Source: Closterium sp. NIES-65
Lineage: Eukaryota; Streptophyta; Zygnematophyceae; Desmidiales; Closteriaceae
Direction: 5' to 3'
Assembly: GCA_948144175.1 (NCBI GenBank)
Contig: CANXME010000398.1
Coordinates: forward strand, 647,501-711,500
Length of the DNA stretch: 64,000 nt
The position numbers were made by a program, and so were the translations under genes. Position 1 is the stretch's first letter. Each line of letters starts with the position of its first letter. Positions 2,340 to 58,829 of the stretch are shown here, piece after piece. The notes under the pieces were generated by a model. The model had not been told where the DNA came from. It made no database searches and worked only from the letters and a program-made list of their open reading frames with translations.

Positions 2340-5300
2340 TCAAGAGGTGAGCAAGTGAGGCAAGGCAGGCACAAGACCCAGCTGAGTACAGAAGCGCTGA
2401 TGATCACAAGGCGCAAGTGCCTTGGTGAAGATATCAGCAGTGTTGGCCTCAGAGGCCACGTACGCAAGACGCAGCTGACCACGCTGCTGCAGCTCACGAG
2501 CAAGGAAGTAGCGAAGAGCTATGTGCTTCGTTCTGTGCTCCAGTCTCTGCTCTCGACACAAGGCCAGCATGGCCTTGTTGTCTACGTACAGCACTGTAGG
2601 AGAACAAGGCGGCTCTTCGAGGTCAGTCAGCAGGTAGGTGAGCCAGCGAAGCTCCTGAGCAGCCATGGCCCCGGCGTAGATCTCAGCCTCACAACTGGAG
2701 CCGAGAACAAAAGACGAGCGGGTAGCCCGCCACGAAACAGAGCCAGAACCAAGGCTGAAGGTGTAACCCTGTGACGACCGCTGCGTAGCCTGGTCGTCAG
2801 CCCAAGAAGCGTCTGCGTGCCCAGTGAGGACCACTGGACTCTACCCTCCAAGCACTAGCCCCATGCCCGACGTACTGCACAAGTAGCGCAACACCCTCTT
2901 CGCTGCAGCCATGTGCTCCGGTCTGTGTCTCCCAGGAGCAACATAGCGTGCGAGAATGCTAAGAGGGTATGCAAGGTCAGGTCGAGTGCAAGTCATCAGG
3001 TACATGAGGCAGCCAACAAGCTCTAGGTACGGGCCACTCGACTCTACGGACTCATCCGAAGGCAGAGCTGAGAGCGAGTGGCGAGTAGGCAGAGGAGTGG
3101 CCTGAGGCGAGGAGTACGTGAAGCCGAAGCGCTGAAGGACCTGCTGCACCATGTGTGACTGAGTCAGGGTAATGGTGCGGCGTGCTCTGTCCCGGGTGAT
3201 CTGCAAGCCAAGGTAGCTGCGCAGTTCACCCAGGTCTGTGCACGTGTGTCTCTTCTGCAACTCGGACTTCACGTGGGCAAGTCCAGCAGTGTCAGTTGTG
3301 GCAAAGACCAAGTCGTCGACGTACATGAGGATGTAGAACGGCGGCAAAGAAGTGTCGGTGCGCAGAAACAGCGACGGGTCGGCAGTAGAGGGAGCAAACC
3401 CAAGAGCCGCAAGTGTAGTCCTCAGTGTGTCGTGCCACTCACGCGGTGCCTGGCGGAGACCGTAGACTGGCCGCCGGAGGCTCCACTAGGTGCCAGGAGG
3501 AAAAGACCCAGTGAAGCCAGGTGGGCGACGCAGCCAGATCTCCTCGTGCAGGCTGCCCTCCAAGAAAGCAGTGTTGAAGTCAAGAGAGTGTAGCTCGTAG
3601 TCACGGTGAGCAGCTATGTGCAGCAGTACCCGAAGAGTGGTCATCTTTGGGGTGGGAGAGAAGGTCTAAAAGTAGTCAACTCCCTGCCGCTGACTGAAGC
3701 CACGAGCCACGTAGCGCGCCTTGAAGACAGGTGGAGAACCCGGCGGTCGCTTCACTCTGAAAATCCACATGCCACTGACGATGTTCGCCCCAAGCGGGGG
3801 AACCTCGTGAACGTAGGTGCCTGTGGACTTCCAGGAAGCCATCTCTGCGTCCATAGCTGCCTGCCACTGAGAGGAGTAGGGACCCTCTATCGCCTCTGCG
3901 TAAGAGCGCGGAGTCGGGATGTCAAGTGCATCCGGGTCTCCCTCAGTGGTAAGGAGTACGGACACGAGATGAGGTGAAGCAGCAGCCAGACACTGGAACT
4001 CCTCCTGCGTGTCCTCCGTGCCCAGGTTACACTCACCCCCGACGGACGGAGGACAGACAGATTCAGACTTAGCAACAAGACTGGCGGCGTAGTCTAGGCG
4101 ACAGCGAGCAGCAAAGTCGACGAGCTCAGCAACTAGGGCAAACGCAGCAGTGGACTCAAAGGAAGGGTCAGTGACAGCAGTAGCATGGAGACGCGTGACA
4201 GTAGGACTGGCAGCACGAAGAGAGTCCGACTCCGGGTCGGCAAGAGCAGGAAGAGAAGACTCAGGAGGAGAAGGTAAAGGTGCACGCAGAGGAGCAGTGG
4301 ACGGACGCAGGGACATCCGGTGCGTGCCAGGGACAGGAGGAGGACGCTGACGCGAACCATGACCACTAGTGCGAGCAGGGCGGACAGGCAACGCAGGGCG
4401 AGACGCAGGCTCACGACGCTCAGCAAGACCTCCAGTAGGACCAGTGTAGGGAGAAGGAGCAGGTAGCAGGGAGGCCGGCTGTAACTGTGACGGGACAGGC
4501 TGTGGACACTCTAAGTGAGGAGAAGGACCAGTAGAAGGCGGGAGACCAAGAACCTGCTGAAGGAGCGGAACGAAGTACGGCCGAGGCCGCGCGGCGACTC
4601 CAGACAGAGCAGGGACAGCACCAGCACCCCCAGCGGTAGCACTAGCGCCAGGAGCACCTCCAGCTCCAGTACCTCCAGCAGCACCAGTAGTACCCCCAGT
4701 AGGACCGCCTCCAGGACCGACAGCAGTAGCCTCAGCACCAACACCCTTAGCAGCTCCAGCTCCAGTCGCACCCGCAGGACCAGCAGCTCCAGTACTCCCA
4801 GCGCGAGCACCCGTGGACCCGCGGCACCAGCACCCTCAGCAGTCGGAGAACCTCCAGCTCCAGCAGCATGCCTCAAGCGCTGGGCAAACCACTCACGCAG
4901 CTCCTGTGGAGAGAGGGGCTCCCATCGAGACGAAGTACCCGGAGAACCTCCAGGCCCAGCACCGCCAGACGCCACACGAGTAGGCCCAACCCCCTCAGGC
5001 TCCGCACCTCCAGGCTCAGCACCCCCTGGCGTAGCACCCCCAGGCTCAGGACCCTCAGGCGTAGCACCCCCAGGCTTAGCACCCCCAGGCTCAGCACCCC
5101 CAGTCGCAGCACCCCCAGGCTCAGCACCCCCAGTAGTAGCACCCGCAGTCTCAGCAACCCCAGGCGCAGCACCCACACGCTCAGCACCCCCAGAGTAAGC
5201 ACCCCCAGGCTCAGCACCCTCAGCAGCACCACAGTCACCTGTAACCTCGACAGGCTCGACTGCGTCTACCTGGGACACACGTGAAGGGGCAGGACCTTGA

Positions 5301-21200: not shown

Positions 21201-21297
21201 GGGGCGACACGACGGGTCGCTAAAAAAAAACGCGCCTCGGGGCGCGGTTCGGTGGGCCCTAGAAGCAGTCCCTAGGAGGGAACCTGCTCTGATTCCA

Positions 21298-21430
21298 TGT
21301 GAAAACAAAGAACGAGAAAATGGATGACTATGAAGTGAAGTGAATACAAATAGGAAACCCTAATATGTTGTACCCCCTATGGGATACCCCACTATAGCCT
21401 ACACAAACAAGTAAGCTATATGTTCTGACA
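21298..21430 (-). repeat. 5' LTR of copia C
   Basis: 133-bp LTR with the primer site abutting at 21286-21297. The right flank carries the AGCTG target duplication. Confidence 0.93.
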
Positions 21431-21930: not shown

Positions 21931-22793
21931 ATTGTAATATAATATGCTACACTAATTATTGCTACAGCCAGTTACAATGTTGCGCAAGGTGCATACAAGC
22001 TCAAACTTATACGTTTGTCAATATTGGAAGCATGGATTTTATTGTCTATGAAATACAACTTATCAGGCCGAAATAATAAAAAGGTGCATGGAACATTGAT
22101 TCCAATTCGCCTTTCGGAGGTTGCCTTCTCGTGAATATTGAGCATCGCAGAGCTTGTTGATTCGTGGCCAAATCGGCGTAAGAGTAAAACAAAATTGAGA
22201 AAGGTCGAAAATAGAGTTGTCTTGCTTGAAAGGTCTGCCCTGGCCCCACCCTGTTTTTGGCACCTACATCCTATGCTTCGACTCCCACATCCTTTATACT
22301 GATGCCTTTGACCCCCTTTTTCCCCGGCTGACTTCTTTATAATGTTATACTTTGCTGACCTGATCGGTCGAGTGAGATTCTTCCCAATCTCTCATTTCCA
22401 CATTGCGTCATAATGGATCAATGTCTTCACGCCAGCCGAATTCATTCGGCCGCCATGGATGCCATTGATGAAACATGACCGATCGGGTCGGCTATGTGTG
22501 AACCATTACAATGTGATAGCGACAAGCCGCATGGCCGCACGAAATTGACGATTGGAAAAAACACCAAATTACAGTAATAATGTTGGTAAGAGACAAGTAA
22601 TTGTGACATTAGCATGCGGTACTTGTGAGCATGCTTTGCAACGTACGCGAGAAACGCGCCATGCTGTGATTATACGACGTTTATACGAACTGCCTATGGG
22701 AACGAATTTACCTGCTCGGGCCGAACTTGTTAGGGATCATTGTCTACTTGTTCAACGTTCGCAAATAAGGCCTGCAAATGTAGTTGTATAGAT
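21931..22793. other. Unique DNA between copia B and the TRIM; no gene recognised
   Basis: Lower in GC than the retroelements. A 79-codon open frame at 22552-22791 (plus) contains CGTCEHAL and ends just before the TRIM. It matches no family I recognise and has no supporting context. No RNA gene is seen. Confidence 0.4.
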
Positions 22794-22798
22794 TATTC

Positions 22799-22939
22799 TG
22801 TCAGAATCCCAACCACTAGACCATTGGGATAAAAGGGCTTGTTTCAGTAGCGGGTCAGTGCGCCCATAACCCCCCAAGCGAATGCGCGTGTAACCCTCTC
22901 CAGGATCAATCGGGCATCCACAGTGCAGATCTACTGACA
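22799..22939 (-). repeat. 3' terminal repeat of the TRIM
   Basis: 141 bp, TG...CA. In element orientation it starts TGTCAGTAGAT and ends GGGATTCTGACA. It carries its own copy of the box A-like TGGTCTAGTGG. Confidence 0.88.
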
Positions 22940-22993
22940 CCCCTCCACACTGGGAGGCCCAAGACTAAGCACAGCGGCAACGGCCTACATGTG

Positions 22994-23064
22994 CATACAC
23001 CGGGAATCGAACCCGAGACCGCTCTGATACCATGTCAGAATCCCAACCACTAGACCATTGGGAT
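22994..23064 (-). promoter_or_regulatory. tRNA-Glu-like fold with Pol III box A and box B across the LTR/primer-site junction
   Basis: Read on the minus strand from 23064: ATCCCAA, box A TGGTCTAGTGG (23057-23047), then TCTGA-CATGGTA-TCAGA, a perfect 5-bp stem with a 7-nt loop (23039-23023), then box B GGTTCGATTCC (23013-23003) inside a T-arm-like hairpin. The order and spacing follow tRNA-Glu within about one nucleotide. The 3' acceptor strand does not pair, so this is not a working tRNA gene. It may act as an internal polymerase III promoter. The primer-binding site overlaps the 3' half of the anticodon arm. Confidence 0.7.
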
Positions 23065-23172
23065 AAAAAGGCTTGTTTCAGTAGCGGGTCAGTGCGCCCA
23101 TAACCCCTAGGCGAACGCGCGTGTAACCCTCTCTAGGATCAATCGGGCATCCACAGTGCATATCTACTGACA
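23033..23172 (-). repeat. 5' terminal repeat of the TRIM
   Basis: 140 bp, TG...CA, with the primer-binding site directly adjoining at 23021-23032 with no spacer. Confidence 0.88.
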
Positions 23173-23214
23173 TATTAGTAGACGAATACAATATAAACAT
23201 AAAATATAAAAAAC

Positions 23215-23405
23215 GAACAGCACGAAGGGAGTCAGGGAGGCAGGTCATGAGGAGATAAAAAGGTGAGATACATGGGGGGCTTTTTCTCAGCCCGAAAGGC
23301 GGGCTCAAGAGCGGCTCAATAACAGATATCAAGGAAGCGCAGGTGAGTAAGGAGGTCAGATACAGTGGCGAAGTCTGACAGCTCATGAAAGAGGAACGTC
23401 CTTAG
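23215..23405 (-). pseudogene. Old copia gag relic
   Basis: Read on the minus strand, it still resembles the copia gag blocks TVSDLLTHLR, PPMYLT and LPDSLR-VR of the elements nearby. Much more diverged than any of them and without LTRs, so an old fragment, broken several times. Copia D lies immediately to the right. Confidence 0.65.
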
Positions 23406-23413
23406 TTGATAGA

Positions 23414-23534
23414 TGAGGAAAGTAGAACGAGAATGAATGAATAAGGAATGGAAGTGATACAAATATGCAACCCAAGAAATGTGTACCCCATAAGGACTAC
23501 CCCACTATAGCCTACACAATATTATAATTTGACA
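23414..23534 (-). repeat. 3' LTR of copia D
   Basis: 121-bp LTR, the shortest of the copia LTRs here, TG...CA. It is followed on the internal side by the shared purine tract. Confidence 0.93.
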
Positions 23535-35746: not shown

Positions 35747-36724
35747 GTTTAATTCGGTGCTTTGGTTCTGCGCACAACTCTTATTAGCAACTGACCCTTT
35801 GCTGCTGCTACCGGGATGCTCCCTTCTCTCATTCGGTCTTCGTCTTTTCCGCTGAGCAACGGCTGCCAGGAGCATGTGTTGAGGCATGGTTCTTGCAAAG
35901 TGAGCAATACGAGCCGTGTAACTGGTGGTTCTGCTCGTACTCCTCCTGCCCGCCCGCCTGCCCGGTGTTGTACCCATGACCCATCCTATCGCAACGCACT
36001 TCACACTCTACCTTATCTACGCGTTTCTTCCTCAAAAGGATTCACGCACGCCTTGTTATCCTATCATCCCAGTCTTCTCCTGTCCTTATCAGCGCGATCG
36101 CTCACCACCGCCCTCCGTAACACCCTGGGCTTCTCGCTGCTGCTTTTTCAACTCTAGCTCATGGATCTGGCTGACTGCTGGTCAGTTGGTAACACACTGC
36201 TGCTGCTTAAGCCTCCTATCTTGTGTCTTAGGTTACTCTCTGGAATTCACATTCCAATCCTCCAGGCTAGCTTGTTTCTTTGTGGGCTTCTAAAAGGGGT
36301 TGCAGATATATGGCTTCTAGCAACTCCTGTGCTTGTGTGATACACGTTTTAGAGTGCTTGTGTGATTGGCGTTGGCTAGTCTGTGGAGCGACCACTGGTG
36401 TTGAATGTGGTGGCCATGTCTTCCTAATGCTTGTATTTTGATAGAGTTAATTAGCTATTATAGTGAAAAGAAGCTAACACCAATCATCATGAACCACTGC
36501 GTTAGATATAACATGAGTGGCAGCTCGTTTGTCAACCGCCATGTGTAACAATCGTTTCAAAACTTCCGCAAACAAACACGCTGTTTAGAACCGGGAGTTC
36601 TGACAACGCGGATGGTGCAGCCCAAAAGCACTTGCTCTTCCTCTCGAACCTCGTAGCTTCGGCGGAATATCAGCCGCCGCTTACGGCGCTTGCGGCACCT
36701 TCTTCTGCCTGTCATCTCGCAGCA
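35747..36724. other. Intergenic region between the two host genes
   Basis: Should hold the 3' untranslated part of the upstream gene and the promoter and 5' leader of the downstream gene, which are in the same direction. It has T-rich stretches and no coding frame I trust. No RNA gene or repeat is seen. Confidence 0.4.
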
Positions 36725-39700
36725 ATGCCTGCGCATGCCGCAACATGCTTCGCCCCTTCCGCGTCTCTCCTCTGTGCACATGCCGCCACTGCTCCGCGGT
36801 TCCATGGCGCGCGAAAAATGGCGTCCGCGGCCTATGCTAAGTGCGTAAAGCGTAGCGCGGATCCGTGCGCCAAGGCCAGCGCGCCTGCGCTAGTGCGCAC
36901 AATTCGCGGAGGATCCATTTACGCGCAAGGCTCCCTCGCCTCGCAAGCATCGTGGGGATCCCGCGGAGGCCGCGCCATGGCAGGGTTTGGGGTTTGGAGA
37001 TCGTGTGTATCATCACGGCTGTTGCACACCGCTAGCGTCGCGCGGTCCAGCGTCGTGCGCTCTTCTAGCGGTAGCAGCAATATCTGCTGCCTCGGTCTCC
37101 TCGGCTCTCGTCCTTCTCCTTCTCCTTCTCGCGTTTCTAGTCGCCGTCTCTCCTTCTCGCCTCCCCACCCTCCTCGCGACGGATCCGCCACATGTCATTA
37201 TCGCGCTTCGTTATCTCTCACCATCTCCTCCTCCTCCGCCTCTTTCTTGACCGCCGCCGTCGTATCCGCTTCCGCCCCGTCCTGGCGATCTGGCACGCAC
37301 GCGTCCTTCCCGTTTGTTCTCTCCGCGTTCCCGACTTTTGTTGCGCCATCCGCGCTCCCCGCTTCCGCCAGCTGGGCCAGCTTCCCCGCCGCCGCGGCGC
37401 TCTCTTTCCCCGCCGATGCTGCGCGCGCGGGCTGGGTGCGCGGATTCGGCAGCTCCGCGGGGGGCTCCGTTGCGCCGAGGCGGAAAGAGCGGCTGCGGAT
37501 AGTCGATAAGACCGGCGGAGAGGCCAATAAGGCCCTGGGAATAAGAGAGAAGAAGAAGAAAAAGAAGAAGACTGGGAAAGCGGACGAGAAAAAAACGGGG
37601 AAGTACTACGGGGAAGGGTTCGGGACGACGGGAGTTCCGCTTGCGCGGAGGTGGGGGGATTACGACAAGCGCCAGTGGGAGGATCCGGAGGGGTGGCGCG
37701 GGGGGATCTTAGGCCGCCCGGAGATCTCGGGGAATCGCGCGAAGCCGGTGGACTCGGCGACAATGAGGGTTTATAAGAATTGGGGGCGGCTCGAGGATGG
37801 GCTGTCTCAGTTGAAAGCGCTCCAGCGGGGGGACGGGGAGGGAGATTCGCGGAGGGGGAAGGTGGGGAGTGGGGGAGCAGTTGCGGAGTGGGGTGGGGGA
37901 AGGGGAGGAGGGGGAGGGGGAGGGGGAGGGGGAGGGGGAGGAAGTCGTTATAAGAAGAAGGCTGGAGAATTTAGTTGGAAGCCTGATTCGAACGATTTGC
38001 AAGGCGCTCGCGGTGTTGGGGGGAAGGACGATGAGAGAGAGGAGGAGGGGCGGAGAGGTGATTGGCGGGACGGCGGGCGGAGAGAGGGTGGCGAAAGGGG
38101 AAGAGAGGAGTGGGGGGAGAGGGGGTTGCGGGGGGAGAGGGGCGAGAGGGGCGGTGGGAGTGCGTGGGGGAATGAGGGGCGGGAGCGGAACAGGGAGTGG
38201 GGTGGGCGGAAGGAGTATGGGGGAGAGCGGGAGTTCGGGGGGGATAATCAACAGGCGAGGCAGTATGAGGGCGGAAGGGAATATGGCGGAAGAAAGGAGT
38301 ATGGCGGAGGAAGGGGGGGAAGGGAGGCGGGGGAAGCAACAGGGGGAAGGTCCCCACGCAGGGAGTCCGGGAGACGGTCTTGGGATGACGTGGATAGTGC
38401 CCGTAGTGACGAGGACGCTGACGTCATGGCGTTCTGGTCCAACGTGGACGTGGACAGCCCCCCTGGCGCCGCGCGGAAGGGCGCAGATCAGGGGGCTGGC
38501 CGGGAGAGGGTGGGGGGAGACGCTGGGCGGGGACGGGGCGGAGAAAGCGGAGGCGAGAGAGGGGAAGGGAGGGGAGGGGGAGGTAAGGGTTGGTCGCGGG
38601 ATTATGCAGCTATGGAGTGGGGAGAAGGGGAGGGGGGAGTGGCAGGAAGAAAGGCAGGCGGAAGGGCAGGGGGAGAGGCGGAAGGAGACAGGGAAGGGTT
38701 TGGGGAGCCCAGGCGCGGGGGAGCTGGGCGCGGAAGGGGCATGCTTCCGCGCAGCAGCGCGCCTGGCGCAGGGGGAAGGGGAGGCTGGGGGGATGCGGAA
38801 GGCAGGGGGGATGCGTTTGGGGGAGATGACTGGCGGGGAAGGGCAGTCGGGGGAGCCCCGCGGCCGGTGATGAGAGGAGGGGCGCAGGGGCGCGCAGATG
38901 GCGGAATGGACAGGGGGGGATGGGGGGGCCGGGGGGAATTCGGCGGGCGGAACGCGCAGGGCGCAGGGAGGGGGAGGGGGGGCGGCGGACAGTGGGGGAG
39001 AGGGGGCGATGGGGGGGAAATGGGGTCACAAGGTGGCAGGGAAGGGGTGTGGGGAGTGAGCGACGGGGGGTGGGGAGGAGGGAGGGGGGCCGGCATAGGT
39101 CCACGGGGAGGGGTAGGAGGTGAGAGGGGGATGGATGGTAGTATTCAGTCTAGCAGCGGGCGGTTCAGAAGGTCTCAAGCCCAGGAGCCTTTCAGAGGTC
39201 CCAGCGGGCGGGGGCGGTTCAGTGATGCAGAGAAGGAGAGTGAGAACGATAACAATGATAATATTGACTCTGGTGCGGAGGGGGAGGGTGACTACGACGA
39301 CGGCGATTACAGCAACAATTATTCCGAGTGGGATAACAGCAACAGCAGCTGGGGAACCCCGTCTATCACCCCGTCTGCTCTCCGCGGGGAGCCCATCTAC
39401 GGCGTCTCGCCCGTGCTCGCCGCGCTCCTCTCGTCCCGCCGCCGCATACACACGCTCTACACGCAGGAAGGGCTGCAGGACGGGCTGAGAGGCGGGGGCA
39501 AGCGCAAGGACAAGGCCGCAGTCGAGCGCGTGCTGCGTGTGGCGGAACAGAGCGGTGTAGAGCGGTTGTCGGTGAGCAAGCATGAGTTGAATCTGCTGTC
39601 TGGGAACCGACCGCACCAGGGACTGGTGTTGGATGCGTCTGGGCTGCAGCTAGAGCCCATAGAGGCGCTCCCGGTGTGGTCTGCTGGTGCGGCTGCGGCT

Positions 39701-40905
39701 GCACGCGCTACTGCTGCTGCTCTGGGTGGTGCGGGCGCAGGAGAAGCAGGGGCGGAAGCTGGGGCTGCAGGGACGGCAGCAGGGCCGGCAGGGACAGGGG
39801 CGGCGGCAGGGGCGGGGGGGGCGGCAGTGGCGCCGCCGGTGTGGGTGGCGCTGGACGAGGTGACGGATCCGCAGAATCTGGGGGCGATTCTGCGGTCGGC
39901 GCACTTCCTCGGGGCGGCCGGCGTGGTGGTGTGTGCTAAGAACTCCGCCCCGCTCTCTGCTGTCGTGTCCAAGGCCAGTGCAGGCGCGCTCGAGATCATG
40001 CAGGTACGTCGTGTTTGATCTTATGCTGAGAGCTGTGTTGGGGCATTTTATCGGCCCTCCGCTCTCCTCTCTCTACTGTAATGTCCAAGGCCAGTGCAGG
40101 CGTGCTCGAGATCATGCAGGCACATCATGGGACATTTTACTGGTCAGAGCAGAGTGAAAGAGCAGAGTGAAAGAGCAGAGTGAAAGAGAACGTGTGTTGT
40201 GCTGTCCAAAGCCCGTGTCCCCCATGTCCCCCCGGTGTTTCCCCCATGTACTCCATGTCCTCCATGTACCCCATGTACCCCATGTACCCCACCCCATGTA
40301 CCCCATATCCCCCATGTACCCCATATCCCCCATGTACCCCATATCCCCAGGTGCATGAGTGCAGCAACATGATGCGTTTCCTCGCCCGATCTGCCGCCAA
40401 CGGCTGGCTGGTGGTGGGCGCAGCAGCGGACCCCTCCGCCATCCCCATCTCCCGCCTCTCCTCTGGAGGCTCCCCCACGCTGCTCGTCCTGGGGAGCGAG
40501 GGAGCAGGGCTGCGCACCAATGTGAAGCGCGCCTGCGCGCACCTTGTGCGGATTAGCGGAGCGGGTTTTAGTGGGGATGTTGGTGGAGGGGTGGGGAAGG
40601 GAGGGGGTGTGGGTGAGGCGGCGGAGGAGGAGGGGTGGGGAAGTGGGGAGGAGGAGGGTGAGGGGGAGAGGGAAGGGAAGGAGGGAGAGGTTGTTGCTGG
40701 TGCTGTGAAGGATGGATCAGGAAAGAGAGAGGATGGGGCAAGTGGAACTGTGGGGGATGTGCGCGGGCTGGGGGCTGGGAGTGGCGTGAAACGTGGAAGT
40801 AAGAGCGGAAGGCTCAAGGTGGTGGATAGTCTGAATGTGAGTGTAGCTGCTGGCATTCTTCTACACCATCTCATCAACTCCTCTGTCGACGCACAGGAGC
40901 CGTAG
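36725..40905 (+). CDS. MRM1: SpoU/TrmH-family rRNA 2'-O-ribose methyltransferase, MRM1 type, organellar
   Basis: Two exons, 36725-40003 and 40351-40905, joined in phase 0 with donor CAG|GTACGT and acceptor CCCCAG. About 1277 residues. The start chosen is the first in-frame ATG; another is at 36818. The Ala/Ser/Arg-rich N-terminus looks like an organellar transit peptide. A Lys run follows at about 275, then a very long Gly/Arg/Glu-rich low-complexity stretch (about 380-870). The SpoU substrate-binding domain begins at about 888 (EPIYGVSPVLAALLSS) and the SPOUT catalytic domain at about 1037. All three SpoU motifs are present: DPQNLGAILRS (about 1046), LVLGSEGAGLR (about 1137) and SLNVSVAAG (about 1252). 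The family methylates a ribose of mitochondrial or chloroplast large-subunit rRNA using S-adenosylmethionine. It is far longer than yeast or bacterial relatives (about 250-410). About 75 extra Gly/Glu-rich residues sit between motifs 2 and 3. The family call is firm; the exact rRNA target is inferred. Confidence 0.88.
40004..40350 (+). repeat. Intron of the MRM1-like gene with copied exon end and minisatellites
   Basis: At about 40080-40123 the intron repeats the last 40 or so bases of exon 1 (39966-40003), from GTCCAAGGCCAGTGCAGGC to the final CAG. In the copy the base pair after CAG is CA instead of the GT donor. Next comes a 13-bp unit GAGCAGAGTGAAA three times (40147-40185), then a CCATGTACC / CCATATCCC array (about 40235-40345) running into the splice acceptor. 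Confidence 0.85.
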
Positions 40906-58698: not shown

Positions 58699-58829
58699 TG
58701 TGAAACTATGAGCAGAGGAATGAATTGACTAAGTCAGAGTTGGGTACAAATACAACCCTAGCAAACTGTACCCCATATGTGCTACCCCACTATAGCCTAC
58801 AAACATGCATCAGCTATAATAATCTGACA
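58699..58829 (-). repeat. 3' LTR of copia H
   Basis: 131 bp, TG...CA. The purine-rich tract adjoins it at 58830. The partner LTR is outside the window. Confidence 0.9.

Follow-up and report, generated by a model that had tools for sequence, protein, structure and literature searches.

A tRNA-Glu-like candidate Pol III promoter laid across the LTR/internal border of a TRIM in Closterium sp. NIES-65

Introduction

In tRNA-derived SINEs, a tRNA head with boxes A and B drives the synthesis of a short non-coding RNA. Among LTR elements, a tRNA-derived Pol III-type sequence has been described within the LTRs of Helenus (TRIMp3; Kojima 2024, PMC10886601), which is reported from plants and fungi. Helenus elements measure 311–1263 bp, possess a PBS and a PPT, generate a 5-bp target site duplication (TSD), and, in fungi, are proposed to depend on Copia for their movement (PMC10886601). 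The same paper gives one plant family as known, that of Selaginella, its Table 1 contains no zygnematophyte alga, and Pol III promoter function is called unproven there for Helenus too (PMC10886601). Cassandra is a second precedent, in which Pol III transcription is described as starting in the 5' LTR and ending in the 3' LTR with an R region of 18 bp (PMC10886601); another report assigns to it tandem arrays and the PBS string TGGTATCAGAGC, which is also that of the element described here (PMC7215508). A third system, SMART/FRetro129, is a tiny LTR element whose PBS and PPT are described as common to a Copia-type partner (PMC3281118).

Our literature search, in which subscription papers were mostly outside coverage, found no paper on a junction-spanning Pol III promoter of a TRIM or on the Closterium element. 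Here we describe a TRIM of Closterium sp. NIES-65 and consider, with a probability of roughly two in three, that a type 2 Pol III promoter derived from tRNA-Glu and laid across the border of its 5' LTR and internal part drives this element.

Results

Structure of the element

The analyzed stretch of DNA, called the window, comprises 64,000 nucleotides of the Closterium sp. NIES-65 genome. It is crowded with Copia copies, and at 36632–40905 it holds a gene with SpoU-type rRNA methyltransferase domains (PF08032 and PF00588 in the matches), the product of which is, within the region searched, a 100% match to a protein of Closterium sp. NIES-64.

A 374-bp element was located at 22799–23172 on the minus strand. 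Its 5' LTR (140 bp, TGTCAG...CTGACA) lies at 23033–23172 and its 3' LTR (141 bp) at 22799–22939; aligned with one gap, the two agree at 134 of 140 positions, and they enclose a 93-bp internal part at 22940–23032. This internal part opens with the PBS TGGTATCAGAGC (23021–23032), which is putatively of the initiator-Met type, continues with box B, and ends with a purine-rich tract GTGTGGAGGGG (22940–22950) adjoining the 3' LTR. Among 30 full-length copies, one of them that of the window, an exact 5-bp target duplication was found in 23; some copies have common flanks, so that not all represent separate insertions. The window copy's own duplication reads TATTC/TATTA, with 4 of 5 bases matching. 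No open reading frame of at least 150 aa is listed over 22799–23172, and a length of 374 bp is too short to leave room for a mobilization protein. The element is hence a TRIM, having TG...CA direct repeats, a total length below 1 kb, no coding capacity for mobilization proteins, a PBS, a PPT, and a TSD.

The tRNA-Glu-like module

Box A (TGGTCTAGTGG, 23047–23057) lies inside the 5' LTR, and box B (GGTTCGATTCC, 23003–23013), which has T-arm-like flanks, lies in the internal part. Each LTR of the window copy holds a single match to the box A consensus, and the box B motif is internal only (position 160) and present in neither LTR. The PBS occupies the place of the anticodon arm, and the string TCTGA-CATGGTA-TCAGA is present between the two boxes on the minus strand. 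An earlier sequence-only reading had described a TRIM with box A, PBS, box B, and this string on the minus strand, and all of them were located on that strand.

The pair of consensus motifs TRGYNNARNGG and GGTTCRANTCC, spaced 25–75 nt apart, appeared in 0 of 200,000 mononucleotide shuffles of the 85-nt zone. Element positions 110–174 align with tRNA-Glu except in the anticodon arm, and gave z scores of 10.9 (CTC) and 10.6 (TTC). The same region scored 3.6–5.8 for Asp, Gly, Lys, and Val and −0.1 for initiator Met, with 500 shuffles for each isotype; the earlier description of the module as tRNA-Glu-like is supported by this comparison, in which none of the five other isotypes exceeded 5.8. It could be argued that the boxes are accidents within a Pol II TRIM, as the genome is rich in repeats and the finding was picked from a long window. 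The shuffling result, the z score of 10.9, and the constraint on box A described below make such a coincidence highly improbable.

The identity of the source gene as tRNA-Glu is a well-supported lead and no proof. Three patterns were tried for a tRNA-Glu gene of the host, and none recovered it: one gave 15 matches, all TRIM-like by sequence, and the other two gave 0. The likeness did not extend to a tRNA covariance-type search, which had been named as a check on the module. ARAGORN found 0 tRNA genes in the window, and Rfam at E ≤ 10 over 22500–23500 listed no tRNA-family match; the tool suppressed one match of the tRNA-related clan that overlapped a higher-scoring one. The best match of the tRNA-related clan in Rfam was a 15-nt T-arm piece (E 0.75), and the listed matches otherwise comprised short stretches corresponding to the T-arm in tmRNA families and, on the opposite strand, a weak match to a plastid 5'UTR family; no 5S match was listed in the same region at the same threshold. 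A functional tRNA gene with a cloverleaf, an acceptor stem, and a Glu anticodon was rejected on the ARAGORN and Rfam results.

Copies and subfamilies

Further genomic copies, which the sequence-only reading had suggested looking for, were obtained by pattern searches of the 874-Mb genome. The PBS followed by 4–14 nt and GGTTCGA was found at 3456 places, box A (GGTCTAGTGG) followed by 8–24 nt and the PBS at 3113 places, and the reversed-pattern controls for both searches gave 0 matches each. As judged by these patterns, thousands of places share a box A situated in the LTR and a box B situated in the body. A single match in a viral contig was located inside an open reading frame and taken as chance, and a longer pattern gave 0 matches against viral contigs.

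For closer comparison, 71 distinct sites with PBS and box B in 70 loci were taken from the first 100 listed places, without being chosen for box A. Box A was present upstream within 2 mismatches in 59 of the 71, was one base shorter in 3 (L104–L106), and was absent in 9. Unit lengths group at 234–235 and 207–208. A second subfamily has a shorter body and carries GAAGGTCTC in place of GGTCTC after the PBS, and the spacer between the PBS and the T-arm-like part differs by 3 nt between the subfamilies.

This spacer bears on another explanation of box B. In Ty1, an extended primer contact involves the T-arm of the initiator-Met tRNA, and box B might represent such a contact and no promoter. The region of box B indeed aligned, over 15 columns with one gap and two mismatches, to a plant-type initiator T-arm in reverse complement; a reversed T-arm resembles a T-arm. 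Box B is, however, an exact ungapped match to GGTTCGANTCC, of which the sole position varying in at least 3 copies is the N, the spacer is not constant between subfamilies, and the likeness of box A is independent of the primer. We therefore regard the primer-contact explanation as improbable.

Tandem arrays were observed at L046/L047 and L095; such arrays of TRIMs are described as common in plants (PMC4717578). On one contig (C1944), four copies (L037–L040) are arranged in facing pairs and have an 8-bp tandem duplication at the LTR/PBS border, which probably represents one segmental duplication.

Constraint on box A, the hairpin, and the T-run

The alignment started from 69 sites, of which 5 were dropped to give 64; the chimeras L048, L080, L082, and L098 and the divergent L046_1264 were then dropped, leaving 59 copies for the comparison of substitutions and hairpin states. 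The inherited/private test used a separate filter, which retained 59 sites with a TRIM-type 5' LTR, of which 57 elements had both LTRs. A change present in both LTRs was regarded as mostly inherited through transposition and a change in one LTR (private) as mostly later, with the reservation that private changes are not all post-insertion decay, since some elements (e.g., L066, L068, L087, L105, and L106) carry LTRs of two subfamilies.

LTR positions 105–133, which include the T-run, the hairpin, and box A, showed 4 inherited and 49 private changes versus 259 and 227 in U3 (positions 13–95), and box A alone showed 1 and 16, with p values (Fisher 1.6e-11 and 7.5e-5, respectively) that overstate independence because the copies are related. 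Bootstrapping over elements is the fairer measure, and it gave inherited fractions of 0.02–0.18 for positions 105–133 versus 0.42–0.66 for U3. When divergent LTR pairs were removed, the inherited/private counts were 4/37 versus 247/119 in 51 elements and 4/29 versus 227/96 in 47 elements; stricter removal left 37 elements with 4/16 versus 180/57 and with 1/4 for box A alone (p 0.015). A singleton/shared comparison gave 8/2 versus 43/35, in the expected direction and non-significant (p 0.18), and sites with a shared variant numbered 2/29 versus 30/95 (one-sided p 0.005).

Ten of the 57 elements had the consensus TRGYNNARNGG broken in a single LTR, and none had it broken in both. These ten losses represent fewer events, as L104–L106, which lie on one contig, carry the same one-base deletion, and the change of G126 to A is found in each of L087, L093, and L102. 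For the T-run, 7 of the 57 showed a break in a single LTR and 2 (L097 and L109) in both. Constraint on box A is supported by these observations. Box B stands outside the inherited/private test, since GGTTCGA is fixed by the sampling pattern and there is no second copy per element. Across the 5' LTRs of the 59 copies, 13 box A changes were counted, of which 7 are allowed by the Pol III consensus (117 A, 120 A/T, and 123 A) and 6 fall outside it (117 T, 126 A twice, and a deletion at 120 in three copies).

Box A is flanked by ATCCCAA (23058–23064), at about tRNA-equivalent bases 1–7, and by TTGGGAT (23040–23046), which could form a 7-bp stem with box A as the loop. Only two stem changes occur in at least 3 of the 59 copies, A115 to G in 6 of them and T127 to C in 8. 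G115 is always accompanied by C127 (6/6), the remaining two C127 copies are unpaired (A.C and C.C), and L066 has two changed pairs (CCTAG/CTAGG). Exact genome-wide counts of the 115/127 states were 287 for G-C, 153 for G.T, and 38 for A.C. A partner of the same state at LTR spacing was found for 45 of the first 100 listed G-C places, 32 of the first 100 listed G.T places, and 0 of the 38 A.C places (p 8e-6, with related copies and events that are not independent). Among the listed places, the unpaired state never occurs in both LTRs, whereas the wobble and G-C states do so in both body-length classes, and the mixed LTR pairs comprise 4 of G-C/G.T and 2 of G-C/A.C. None of the 57 sampled elements has G-C in both LTRs; such pairs come from the genome lists. 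In L066, L068, L087, L102, L105, and L106, the hairpin is G-C in one LTR and A-T in the other, as if these were LTRs of two subfamilies.

RNA folding of the module was no better than that of shuffles (z −0.13 and −0.16), nor was that of the box-A hairpin alone (z −1.15). Thermodynamic folding was accordingly rejected as evidence, and the case for the box-A hairpin rests on the paired changes. Such changes had been asked about for the TCTGA/TCAGA stem, and they were detected instead in the different stem around box A. The LTR side of TCTGA/TCAGA has 7 substitutions in 59 copies, and its PBS side is fixed by the sampling pattern, which leaves no room for compensation to show; the stem was rejected as a maintained structure. 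Its two sides have other roles, the LTR end CTGACA as the terminal inverted repeat and the PBS as a sequence set by the primer tRNA.

The paired changes around box A also suit a Pol II TRIM that contains a fossil tRNA-Glu piece, derived from a tRNA gene or a SINE and kept for a U5–PBS RNA structure used in reverse transcription or packaging; the L066 pairs, the 6/6 association, and the genome-wide partner counts all fit a structure of this kind. Such a fossil would not explain why box A in the loop is conserved as strongly as the hairpin stem or why the T-run is conserved too, and Cassandra and, by proposal, Helenus provide Pol III precedents. The box A changes themselves point both ways, seven of the 13 fitting the Pol III consensus and six not. 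Taken together, we consider a Pol II element with a fossil tRNA piece unlikely.

Proposed transcription

In the split-promoter reading, which we prefer, box A near the LTR end, the PBS in the position of the anticodon arm, and box B just past the PBS would together constitute the promoter. TFIIIC would bind boxes A and B in complete elements only, and Pol III would start at the CAA triplet (23073–23075), about 9–12 bases before tRNA-equivalent base 1, giving a start approximately 16–18 nt before box A at about 23073–23074. CAA is described as a frequent start motif of plant tRNA genes (PMC11700998). The triplet is not strictly kept among copies: its C (position 98) has 7 inherited changes and differs between subfamilies, and its AA is invariant in the sample. 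A second conserved stretch, in which all 11 changes are private and none is inherited, was observed at LTR positions 71–80 (window 23093–23102), about 20–30 nt upstream of the proposed start; it is a possible upstream promoter element.

After initiation, the polymerase would read through the promoter-proximal T-run (23065–23069), which lies immediately before the tRNA-like start, cross the element, and stop at the TTTT of the 3' LTR (22831–22834), the proposed terminator. The predicted product is an RNA of approximately 243 nt, or approximately 217 nt in the subfamily with the shorter body, with a terminal repeat (R) of approximately 10 nt. The window copy has only two runs of T4 or longer, one in the 5' LTR and one in the 3' LTR. 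In 45 of 54 filter-passing copies there is no such run before that of the 3' LTR, which itself has T4; 2 of the other 9 have an inner T4 and 7 lack the terminal T4. The absence of T4 over 230 nt was rejected as stand-alone evidence, as 43–68% of shuffles likewise lack it, and the absence of any TTT over this length is rarer (3% of mononucleotide shuffles). The double T-run losses in L097 and L109 count against a strict need for T4. Under the model, the 5' end would be the template for R, and there the T-run would not have to act as a terminator.

The RNA would then be primed by the initiator-Met tRNA and copied by co-resident Copia proteins, with Copia RNA packaged together with it. Having box A without box B, a solo LTR or a 3' LTR should be promoter-dead, so that thousands of copies could exist without an active Pol III promoter in every LTR. 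The fuller scheme, in which the LTR/PBS border would serve at once as a tRNA-Glu-like promoter, a primer site, and the R/U5 border, one T-run would act as both 5' leader and 3' terminator, solo and 3' LTRs would be promoter-dead, and the element would ride in Copia particles, strikes us as having an even chance of being right.

Chimeras with Copia-type elements

Nine sites with PBS and box B and without box A were surveyed for chimeras. In L043, L048, L058, L075, L082, and L098, the PBS is the exact point at which a different LTR-like sequence meets the TRIM body with its TRIM LTR, with two LTR copies in the L043 chimera and two TRIM units in L058. All six then bear a second PBS, which is exact in L043 and L082 and changed in L048, L058, L075, and L098. 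In L048 and L075 the sequence after this second PBS is of the Copia leader type present in the window, in L082 and L098 it matches other window stretches, and for L043 and L058 it gave no window match. The 5' parts of the six chimeras and of L080 match window stretches, mostly of the Copia LTR type near 21345–21430 or similar, and the 5' LTR of L048 is 100% identical over 131 bp to window 58699–58829. L080, whose joint is likewise exactly at the PBS, has the arrangement LTR, TRIM body, and TRIM LTR with a 5-bp duplication (GTATC), and L069 showed no window match and no clear duplication. From the positions of the joints, which match plus-strand transfer between co-packaged cDNAs via a common PBS, we infer that such transfer may have produced them. 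The PBS-joined chimeras make this Copia group the likely mobilizer of the TRIM.

The window itself contains a Copia-type PBS with one mismatch (TGGAATCAGAGC) at 21286–21297 after an LTR of approximately 130 bp, and 58699–58829 is a further Copia-type LTR. At L049 (1385–1501 and 1807–1923), the LTR consists of the TRIM U3 and a different U5 (CATTCCTCATTTCTTCACA), with the joint near the proposed R region.

Discussion

If the split-promoter reading is true, sequences on the two sides of the LTR border can together make up the Pol III promoter of a TRIM, and promoter function is tied to an intact primer site. A zygnematophyte alga, from the group closest to land plants, would also join the range of TRIMs with tRNA promoters. 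The reading predicts that complete elements are active and solo LTRs silent, and that the RNA of approximately 243 nt has a triphosphate start and a U-tail. The element would in addition serve as a natural test of the minimum R length.

Compared with known systems, tRNA-derived SINEs differ from the Closterium element in that they lack LTRs, a PBS, and an integrase-type TSD and are moved by LINEs. SMART/FRetro129 differs in having a TATA motif in its LTR, and the main text of its description makes no use of the terms polymerase III, pol III, or tRNA (PMC3281118). Cassandra resembles the present element, so far as its described features go, as a TRIM with a Pol III promoter, a terminator, and a short R, of which the Closterium counterparts are putative. 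Its promoter, however, is a 5S rRNA sequence situated entirely in the LTR, so that every LTR has the whole promoter, and Rfam found no 5S rRNA sequence in the LTR of the Closterium element.

The nearest relative in kind is Helenus/TRIMp3. As described (PMC10886601), it is likewise a TRIM with a tRNA-derived Pol III-type sequence, a PBS, a PPT, and a 5-bp TSD. Helenus is defined by a tRNA-like sequence within the LTRs, whereas in the window copy the LTR holds the box A half of such a sequence and neither LTR has box B. The Closterium element differs from the described Helenus by having only box A in the LTR and by enclosing the PBS in a tRNA-like module whose box B is internal; a split at the border is unmentioned in the parts of the Helenus paper compared here. 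The sequence-only reading had proposed a second way, besides that of Cassandra, for a TRIM to capture a Pol III promoter, and in its general form this was preceded by Helenus/TRIMp3 in 2024 (PMC10886601), while the sharing of the promoter between LTR and internal part stands as new relative to that text. The idea that a TRIM may use a Pol III promoter derived from a tRNA is therefore not new, and what the Closterium element adds is the split of the candidate promoter across the LTR/internal border, with the PBS taking the place of the anticodon arm.
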